Positions 26,331 to 29,609 of a stretch of 64,000 nucleotides of DNA are shown here, in pieces; the first letter of the stretch is position 1; each line of letters opens with the position of its first letter. The position numbers and the translations under genes are program-made. The notes under the pieces were generated by a model. That model searched no databases and was not told the origin of the DNA. It was given only the letters and a program-made list of their open reading frames with translations. Where the stretch lies: positions 1,906,001 to 1,970,000 of the forward strand of contig NC_011027.1 of NCBI RefSeq assembly GCF_000020505.1, given 5' to 3'. This DNA is from Chlorobaculum parvum NCIB 8327 (lineage in GTDB: Bacteria; Bacteroidota; Chlorobiia; Chlorobiales; Chlorobiaceae).

Positions 26331-27302
26331 ATGAGTGAACCAAGGTCAACGGTACAGGAAGGAAAAACGATTCTTCTGCAGGAGGCTGAAGCCCTACGCG
26401 CAATGAGCGAGCGGCTTGACGAAAGCTTTGCAAAAGCGGTCGACCTGATGCTTGAGAGCAAGGGCAAAATCATCATTTCGGGCATGGGCAAATCGGGCAT
26501 CATCGGCCAGAAGATCGCCGCCACGCTCTCTTCCACCGGTACGACGGCAGTGTTCATGCACCCCGCTGAAGCGGCCCACGGCGACCTCGGCGTGGTCTGT
26601 GAAGGCGACACGATCATCTGCCTCTCCAAAAGCGGCATGACCGAAGAGCTGAACTTCATCATCCCGGCGCTCAGGGAACGCAATGCCACCATCATCGCCT
26701 TCACCGGCAACACCCGCTCGTACCTGGCCATGAACGCCCACGTTGTGCTCGACACCGGCGTCGAACAGGAAGCCTGCCCGTACGACCTCGCGCCGACCAC
26801 CTCGACCACCGCCATGCTCGCAATGGGCGACGCGCTGGCGATCTGCTTGATGAAAAAGAAGAACTTCACCGACCTGGAGTTCGCCCTCACCCATCCCAAG
26901 GGTTCACTCGGAAAGCAATTGACCATGCGGGTCGGCGACGTCATGGCCACCGGAGACGCACTCCCGTTAGTTTCGGAGGATGCGACGGTCTCAGACCTCA
27001 TCCTCGAAATCACCTCCAAACGCTACGGCGTCAGCGGCGTAGTGGATGCGGAGGGAAAGCTGATCGGTATCTTCACCGACGGCGACCTGCGGCGTCTGGT
27101 GCAGACCGGCGAATCGTTCCTCGACAAGACAGCGGCGGAAGTCATGACCCCCAACCCGAAAACCGTCTCAGCCGAATTAATGGCCAAAAAGTGCCTTGAA
27201 CTCCTCGAAACCTGGCGAATCACCCAACTCATGGTCTGCGATGAAGAGCAACGCCCGGTGGGAATCGTGCACATCCACGATCTGGTGACGCTGGGGTTGT
27301 AA
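26331..27302 (+). CDS. kdsD: arabinose-5-phosphate isomerase (KdsD/KpsF)
   Basis: A 323-residue enzyme converting ribulose 5-phosphate to arabinose 5-phosphate, the first step towards the KDO sugar of lipopolysaccharide. Seen: an N-terminal SIS domain (GKIIISGMGKSGIIGQKIAATL at about residues 43-64, then HPAEAAHGDLGVV and CLSKSGMTEE) and two C-terminal CBS domains (about 205-320, with DVMATGDALPLV and VMTPNPKTVS). The length and order match KdsD/KpsF/GutQ. Works with lpxB and the other lipopolysaccharide genes in the window. Confidence 0.95.
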   Translation: MSEPRSTVQEGKTILLQEAEALRAMSERLDESFAKAVDLMLESKGKIIISGMGKSGIIGQKIAATLSSTGTTAVFMHPAEAAHGDLGVVCEGDTIICLSKSGMTEELNFIIPALRERNATIIAFTGNTRSYLAMNAHVVLDTGVEQEACPYDLAPTTSTTAMLAMGDALAICLMKKKNFTDLEFALTHPKGSLGKQLTMRVGDVMATGDALPLVSEDATVSDLILEITSKRYGVSGVVDAEGKLIGIFTDGDLRRLVQTGESFLDKTAAEVMTPNPKTVSAELMAKKCLELLETWRITQLMVCDEEQRPVGIVHIHDLVTLGL

Positions 27303-27471
27303 GGGGAAGAAGTGGAACGGAAAAGGACAGCAAGCTTACTATCATACTCCCCGTCTGCCCTTGCAATACTTGGCGTCCAATTTGCCTGTGTTGCAACGAA
27401 ACAACATTTTAGTCGATCGAGAAAACCTCACCACATAAAGCCCTCTCAGCAAGAACAACTTTGAAGCTCTG

Positions 27472-28221
27472 TTAAAGCTCTGCTGCACGCGCACTTGAAA
27501 TCACCTCGACTTCAAACCTCTCTGAAATTTTCTTGATATTGTCCGGAAAAAACACAGATGAACAACCGGCATTTTGGCCACGATCATCTGTACAAAAAAG
27601 ATGAATCCCCATGGAGTAACATGCTGCTATGGAATCGCCATCTGACCACTCTGCAATAGCTTTTATAAATGCGTTACGTTTATTTTCTGGAATTTGTAAC
27701 GTTCCATCAGACAAACCGAACTCTTGTTTAAAACGACTGTATTTTGATTGCCCTCCTCCCATTTTTTCTATAAATTTTACACACTCACTGAACAGTTCGG
27801 CACGCCGCCAAAATCCACCATTTTCATCAAACTGCACGTACATATCTTTCGGAATTTCGTTTGTCCTTACTGTTCCAAATCGATTCATATGTATAACCTT
27901 AAAACCTAATCTCTGTGCGAGAGCAAGTTTGGAAATTAATACTTCTGGCAAACCAGGATGCAGTTCATTGTTTGGCGAAATACTAAATTCTGTACATACT
28001 CTATTATCAACAGACTGTGTATCTTTAAACTCGAACTTCGGCTTGTATGTTTTAAAAAAACCTGCTCGATGCATTTTTGGGATCTGCTCAAGTGAAATGG
28101 CCGCCTCACAAATAAACGGAACAAGCAAATTTCCTCGAATCTTCATATTTATCGTTCGATACGGCTCTGCCTCCGAATCGACTACCTTTTCCCAAACGTT
28201 TGAATCAAAAACGATTTTCAT
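27472..28221 (-). CDS. PIN-like nuclease domain protein, AT-rich
   Basis: A 249-residue protein of no named family that I can recognise. Seen: MKIVFDSNVWEKVV at the start, with D6 placed like the first PIN-domain aspartate; an acidic helix around E39/E45; and late acidic motifs DGDSIAA and LFCTDDRGQNAG placed like the second and third metal-binding acids. That supports a metal-dependent ribonuclease fold (inference), larger than a usual VapC toxin of about 130 residues. Base composition is clearly AT-rich: 27721-27780 has 19 G/C of 60, while 26521-26580 in kdsD has 40 of 60, which suggests recent transfer. A wrecked nucleotidyltransferase gene lies directly upstream. Confidence 0.7.
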   Translation of the reverse strand: MKIVFDSNVWEKVVDSEAEPYRTINMKIRGNLLVPFICEAAISLEQIPKMHRAGFFKTYKPKFEFKDTQSVDNRVCTEFSISPNNELHPGLPEVLISKLALAQRLGFKVIHMNRFGTVRTNEIPKDMYVQFDENGGFWRRAELFSECVKFIEKMGGGQSKYSRFKQEFGLSDGTLQIPENKRNAFIKAIAEWSDGDSIAACYSMGIHLFCTDDRGQNAGCSSVFFPDNIKKISERFEVEVISSARAAEL

Positions 28222-28270
28222 AAACTTCCCTAAAAATTATTTTTGCAATAAATTATCTGGCCGTTTTTTT

Positions 28271-28502
28271 TCATATACTAACTCCTTCTGATACATATTC
28301 GGCATCTCTTTCTATTCGTTTTTTCAAATAGGAACTCATTTTTCCCTTTTACACACAATATCGACAGGGCTTCTTCAATTGCCTTTCTAAATCCGCTTTA
28401 ATATGAGAAAAAAAGCCCGAGAACACCGATCCCGTACTTTTCTGAATTTTCCTATTTATATAGCTTTATACGCTCAAGAATTTCTGAACGGTTCATGGTC
28501 AT
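28271..28502 (-). pseudogene. degraded MNT-type nucleotidyltransferase gene
   Basis: Reading the minus strand from the ATG at 28502 (ribosome binding site GGAGA just before it) gives MTMNRSEILERIKLYK, a TAG stop, then in the same frame ENSEKYGIGVLGLFFSY and a TAA. This matches the start of minimal nucleotidyltransferases, where the last part would read GLFGSYARG. In another frame follow KADLERQLKKP and, after a further break, GKMSSYLKKRIERDAEYV, which matches the end of the same family. The catalytic GS...DxD centre has been deleted. So the gene is a fossil with a stop, frameshifts and an internal deletion. Its TGA overlaps a new ATG, as in MNT/HEPN pairs, but the partner is gone. Confidence 0.65.
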
Positions 28503-28641
28503 TTCTCCATTTTCTCAAGTTTTAAACTCATTATCCTTGAAATCAAAACCTTCTTTCATTCGTCTTCAACATCAACCTCAATATAGATACTCCATCAGCA
28601 AATAGCACAATACAGGCGCTCCAACAAGTCTCCCCCAACGC

Positions 28642-28681
28642 AAAAAAGGCTGCCCCGGTGTTACTCCGAAGCAGCCTTTTT
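28642..28681 (-). terminator. rho-independent terminator downstream of sucD
   Basis: On the minus strand AAAAAGGCTGC (28681-28671) pairs with GCAGCC (28653-28648) and is followed by six T. The stem lies 26 bases beyond the sucD stop and marks the right edge of the AT-rich islet. Bases 28503-28641 show nothing else I can support. Confidence 0.85.
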
Positions 28682-28706
28682 CTGCGTAAATCTTCTTGCC
28701 CTACTT

Positions 28707-29609
28707 TCAGGCTTTTCCAAGCGCTTTGAGCATGGCTTGGCCGATGTCGGCGGGGTTTTCGACCACCTTGATTCCTGCGGCTTCCATTGCCTTGATCTTC
28801 TCTTCGGCGGTACCTTTGCCGCCTGAAACGATCGCGCCTGCATGGCCCATGCGGCGTCCGGGAGGAGCGGTACGGCCTGCGATGAAGCCGACGACCGGTT
28901 TCTTGAAATATTTCTTGATGTACTCGGCGGCCTCTTCTTCAGCGCTGCCACCAATTTCACCGATCATAATGAGACCTTCGGTGTCGTCATCCTTGGCGAA
29001 CATCTTGACCGCGTCGATGAAGCGGGTGCCAATGATCGGGTCACCGCCGATGCCGATACAGGTGGACTGTCCGAGACCTACCTCGGTAAGCTGGTGCACC
29101 GCTTCGTAGGTCAGGGTGCCACTGCGCGACACGACGCCGATGGAGCCTTTCTTGTGGATGAAGCCCGGCATGATGCCGACTTTGGCTTCGCCGGGGGTGA
29201 TAACGCCGGGGCAGTTCGGGCCAACCAGCACCGCGCCCTTCTCCTGCACGAAGCTGTAGGCTTTCATCATGTCGTTAACCGGAATGCCTTCGGTGATGCA
29301 GATGATCACCTTAAGGCCAGCGTCGGCAGCCTCCATGATGGCGTCTGCAGCAAATGCGGCAGGCACGAAGATGACCGTGGCGTTGGCTTCGGCCTTCTCG
29401 ACAGCTTCACGGACGGTGTCGAACACCGGAACCGGACGGCAGAATTGGTCTTTCTCGTTGCCGTTATAGAGAATACCGCCCTTGCCGGGAGTGACGCCTG
29501 CCACAACGTTGGTGCCGTATTCGAGAATCTGCGAGGTGTGGAAGGTACCCTCGCCGCCGGTAATTCCCTGCACGACCAGACGGGTATCTTTATTGACCAG
29601 TACGCTCAT
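28707..29609 (-). CDS. sucD: succinyl-CoA synthetase, alpha subunit
   Basis: A 300-residue subunit that carries the phosphohistidine and the CoA site; in green sulfur bacteria it would run in the reductive (carbon-fixing) TCA cycle. Seen: the N-terminal CoA-binding fold ([14 protein letters not shown], near residues 14-27, then GVTPGKGG), [16 protein letters not shown] at about 123-138 and the active-site segment [19 protein letters not shown] with the histidine near residue 248. The usual partner sucC is not beside it. It ends at a good terminator; gatA lies upstream on the same strand with 36 bases between. Confidence 0.96.

Follow-up and report, generated by a model that had tools for sequence, protein, structure and literature searches.

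The window analysed here is a stretch of 64,000 nucleotides (1906001–1970000) from the single-contig genome of Chlorobaculum parvum NCIB 8327 (2,289,249 bases). Within it, sucD (28707–29609, minus strand) and the gene for a KpsF/GutQ-type sugar phosphate isomerase, here named kdsD (26331–27302, plus strand), flank a gap (27303–28706) that is AT-rich, with a G+C content of 36–44% against 55–62% in the flanking genes. Read away from sucD along the minus strand, the gap holds a conserved, single-copy non-coding stretch (28559–28620), what is almost certainly a dead gene for a minimal nucleotidyltransferase (MNT) antitoxin, mntA (28289–28496), the surviving 5′ end of its partner hepT (28276–28296), and an intact open reading frame (ORF) for a PIN-like protein of 249 amino acids (27472–28221). 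The first two genes are the remains of a decayed MntA/HepT pair.

MntA/HepT (HEPN-MNT, type VII) toxin-antitoxin systems were characterised as SO_3165/SO_3166 of Shewanella oneidensis (PMC4621449, PMC7641770). In the best-studied class the toxin HepT acts as an RNase, whose RX4HXY motif is modified by MntA through transfer of AMP to the tyrosine (PMC7641770).

Homology and lesions of the mntA fossil

On the minus strand, the interval 28271–28502 reads LERIKLYK-stop-ENSEKYGIGVLGLFFSY in one frame and GKMSSYLKKRIERDAEYV in another. The original prediction, made from the letters alone, took these pieces as the fossil of an MNT antitoxin-type gene in a decaying pair, and all the strings that it quoted are present. 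A DNA search with 28222–28660 against 21 congeneric genomes found matches of 82% identity over 130 bp (E 1.9e-28) and 81% over 113 bp (E 2e-22) in genome G002 (G-numbers denote the genomes of relatives), beside the same sucD. When the intact MNT protein of G012 was used as a query against the whole 2.29-Mb window genome, the only matches were the two fossil pieces, at 28392–28496 (E 1.5e-6) and 28292–28408 (E 2.5e-6). The frameshift-tolerant match to a nucleotidyltransferase for which the prediction had proposed a search is thus present, and the comparison with the same locus in other Chlorobaculum genomes, also proposed, yielded intact mntA orthologues in G002 and G012. The Pfam NTP_transf_2 profile found nothing in the window genome, as expected from a broken gene. 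A chance likeness in non-coding, AT-rich DNA can be dismissed with near certainty: the DNA matches lie at the syntenic place, the pieces are collinear with the intact gene, gene order is preserved, and orthologous intact genes exist.

Lesions were called by alignment to the two intact relatives, G002 and G012. The start codon, placed by homology, lies at 28496. The surviving 5′ part (28411–28496) carries a premature TAG at 28452–28454 and ends at a deletion junction (28410/28411), where a net 83 nucleotides, not a multiple of three, are missing. The 3′ part (28289–28410) differs from both intact relatives by a one-base insertion and a one-base deletion, and the native stop position (28289–28291) is now a sense codon. 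With a stop, frameshifts and the deletion, the window mntA has no open reading frame, and a functional product from the fossil is now impossible.

The deletion spans from just after GLF to VHIK and removes both GSY and SDxD, so that the GSX10DXD motif is gone and the claim that the catalytic centre had been deleted between the two pieces holds. The proposal that GLFFSY was once GLFGSYARG does not: its ‘SY’ is an out-of-frame reading of TCATAT, which encodes His-Ile in the VHIK segment on the far side of the deletion, and GSY has therefore been lost too. The 26 substitutions on the window branch are spread over codon positions 1, 2 and 3 as 6, 10 and 10, small counts, whereas the intact genes of G002 and G012 differ from each other at 16, 10 and 34 positions, the normal third-position excess. 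The even spread points to neutral drift of mntA.

What survives of hepT is an ATG and six codons, MYQKELV (28276–28296, minus strand), against MYDKELV in both G002 and G012, with 87.5% identity over 24 nucleotides and a local E value of 4e-4. The overlap with the 3′ end of mntA is that of the canonical junction. In the 11 relatives with a canonical hepT start, the ATG always lies 8 nucleotides before the end of the mntA stop codon; this offset maps to 28289–28296 in the window, where the hepT ATG has been kept and the mntA stop lost. The TGA/ATG overlap that the prediction had read as the MNT-HEPN junction does exist, as an ATGA at 28271–28274 on the minus strand, but it lies 22 bases too far downstream to be that junction. 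Likewise, the statement that no HEPN gene follows is right in that no intact hepT stands beside the window mntA, and overlooks the 21 nucleotides of its 5′ end that are left. No surviving HepT was found in the window genome, and a search for further pieces of hepT, downstream of both the fossil and the PIN-like ORF, gave nothing convincing beyond the first seven codons. The segment 28222–28270 was considered as a middle part of hepT and left uncounted, its local E value of about 0.2 not being significant. The lesions of mntA together with a hepT cut to seven codons bear out the view of a toxin-antitoxin pair in decay.

Intact and part-broken pairs in the Chlorobiales

At the same site by sucD, G002 has an intact mntA encoding 96 amino acids (NTP_transf_2, 58.4 bits), and G012 has an intact mntA (54.1 bits) followed by a hepT of 123 amino acids (HepT-like, PF01934, 59.5 bits) at an offset of −8. 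Both MntA proteins contain GSX10DXD and score above the PF01909 cut-off, and the G012 pair carries GSYARDAANEESDID and RDIITHHY, which correspond to GSX10DXD and RX4HXY. The intact relatives thus resemble known MntA/HepT systems in having the antitoxin first, overlapping genes, the domains PF01909 and PF01934, GSX10DXD in MntA and RX4HXY in HepT. Unlike those systems, the window copy is a pseudogene from which GSX10DXD has been deleted and in which hepT is down to seven codons. The intact Chlorobaculum proteins also do not reach the NCBIfam equivalog cut-offs of 60 bits, at 49.1 and 50.0 for MntA of G002 and G012 and 30.8 for HepT, which marks them as a divergent branch of the MNT family. The G012 MntA matches PADLOC PDC-S09, a candidate single-gene defence family, over its full length (E 5e-27), whereas the window copy is broken; most candidates of the PDC type still await experimental proof (PMC12988326). 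That the fossil is an ordinary pseudogene of a known toxin-antitoxin family is well supported.

We surveyed 98 Chlorobiales genomes, including that of the window, for pairs of this subfamily. Ten loci hold an intact pair. At five (G002, G034, G083, G065 and G001) mntA is intact and hepT clearly broken, and in G029 and G037 mntA is intact and the start of hepT frameshifted, with the proviso that some of the hepT lesions were read from draft or metagenome assemblies, where they may be errors of sequencing. The hepT of G002 is interrupted by a stop and a frameshift shortly ahead of HXY, that of G034 (L016) by a stop inside the RX4HXY motif, and that of G065 (L028) has an internal deletion with both ends kept. 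Both genes are broken in the window genome and in G066, and none of the 98 genomes showed a broken mntA with an intact hepT next to it.

If loci are taken as independent and both genes as equally breakable, the one-sided chance of the toxin being the broken gene is about 0.03 for five of five loci and about 0.008 for seven of seven, figures that lose weight through common descent of loci, errors in assemblies and the fact that hepT is the longer gene. Left out of this count were G054, G064, G069 and G084, where mntA is followed by a different short ORF.

The MNT genes of these four genomes (G064, L017, 1501–1785 onwards; G054, L018; G069, L021; G084, L029) are intact, and the short ORF (MYEEYQAIEEFMEDCMDLIDLWEAKF...) sits at the usual overlap in place of HepT; it has no Pfam match.

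Loss of the toxin first and the antitoxin second is the order predicted by the killing logic of such pairs, and the survey lends support to the idea that the antitoxin cannot be lost before the toxin. Judged by these relatives, hepT was probably lost before mntA in the window lineage as well. In the literature searched we found no description of either this fossil or MntA/HepT pairs that decay toxin first.

The variable sucD-kdsD site and the PIN-like gene

Across the genus, the sucD-kdsD gap is an island whose toxin-antitoxin and defence genes vary from species to species. It measures 80–300 bases in about half of the congeners and 1.3–3.5 kb in others (L070–L089). Its contents include a ParE toxin, a caspase-domain protein and an ISL3 transposase in G001, SEFIR defence proteins in G007 and G014, a Phd antitoxin in G004 and G007, a TIR-effector-like protein in G020, DUF4160/DUF2442 pairs in G002, G004 and G020, and MntA/HepT in G002 and G012. 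The non-coding stretch at 28559–28620 (minus strand) forms a left border that six genomes with a filled island have in common: 40–60 bases of it are common to the six filled sites, after the sucD terminator and before unrelated genes, and it may be a promoter. The interval 28552–28620 was also considered as the fossil of a DUF4160 gene and rejected, since it corresponds to the non-coding stretch that precedes that gene in relatives.

The PIN-like ORF (27472–28221, minus strand) is preceded by an AGGGAAG-type ribosome-binding site and begins 50 bases past 28271 and 54 bases past the last recognisable hepT codon. It is not homologous to HepT. An ORF does therefore follow after 50 bases, as had been noted, whereas its assignment to the PIN family is based on conserved residues, with no profile match. 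These residues (D5, N7, E38, E190, D193 and D212) suggest a PIN-type, metal-dependent nuclease. Like PIN/VapC-type RNases, the protein has a DxN start, a conserved Glu and a C-terminal E-W-x-D-G ... C-T/S-x-D pattern; unlike them, it is 249 amino acids long with a long middle part, has no partner antitoxin gene and matches no PIN model. Searches of Pfam and NCBIfam (E up to 1), PADLOC and the PDB gave no match. An AlphaFold2 model built from an alignment of only three sequences had a pLDDT of 37, too low to be usable. The closest relatives are two Poribacteria proteins (42% identity), followed by hypothetical proteins on Bradyrhizobium and Acetobacter plasmids (23–28%); none was found in the 97 other Chlorobiales genomes or among phages and viruses.

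How this gene relates to the fossil bears on the two remaining alternatives. The fossil could still be alive as a short protein or RNA, for instance through a 16-codon ORF in its 5′ part or as a transcript serving the PIN-like gene as leader or antitoxin RNA. In favour, an intact ORF with a plausible ribosome-binding site follows it immediately on the same strand. Against this, its substitutions are even over codon positions, its 5′ part lacks any enzyme motif, and a structural RNA was rejected on the absence of an Rfam match and an ordinary folding energy (z −0.24), all of which makes a live fossil very improbable.

More plausible, and still a tentative reading that we would not favour, is a direct replacement, in which the PIN-like gene came in by the recombination that removed hepT and now serves as an RNase toxin or defence gene on the promoter of the old pair. 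Position and strand are compatible with it, the ORF following 54 bases after the last hepT codon, and the absence of the gene from the 97 other Chlorobiales genomes marks it as a recent arrival. The occurrence of relatives in Poribacteria and on mobile plasmids also agrees, as do six invariant residues suited to a PIN-type nuclease. However, membership of the PIN family has no database match behind it, and the lack of any hepT trace downstream of the ORF fits one event or two. A still more specific version, which we regard as doubtful, would make the gap a small, anchored acquisition spot, in which toxin-antitoxin and defence cassettes are gained and lost behind a conserved start region of 60 bp, and would have the promoter of the dying pair captured by a PIN-like nuclease from a family not yet described. 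The fossil would then be what a toxin swap left behind.

Decay of the pair

The history that we prefer is one of decay. A mobile MntA-HepT pair once stood between sucD and kdsD in an ancestor of this Chlorobaculum. By analogy with the characterised class, it would have acted by AMP transfer to an RNase: in the intact pair, MntA would AMPylate the tyrosine of RX4HXY and so hold HepT, a HEPN RNase, inactive. All of hepT except its initial seven codons was lost, probably first; the loss would have freed the cell of the toxin, made mntA dispensable and left it to neutral drift. mntA gained its stop, small indels and the 83-nucleotide net deletion of the catalytic centre, and lost its own stop codon. 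The unrelated PIN-like gene directly downstream probably reached the variable site separately, and its transcription may begin in the old start region.

The fossil completes a datable series of stepwise decay at one site, from the intact pair (G012) through a broken toxin beside an intact antitoxin (G002) to a locus where both genes are dead (the window genome), and draws attention to a short, changeable region, flanked by two housekeeping genes, in which such modules turn over.
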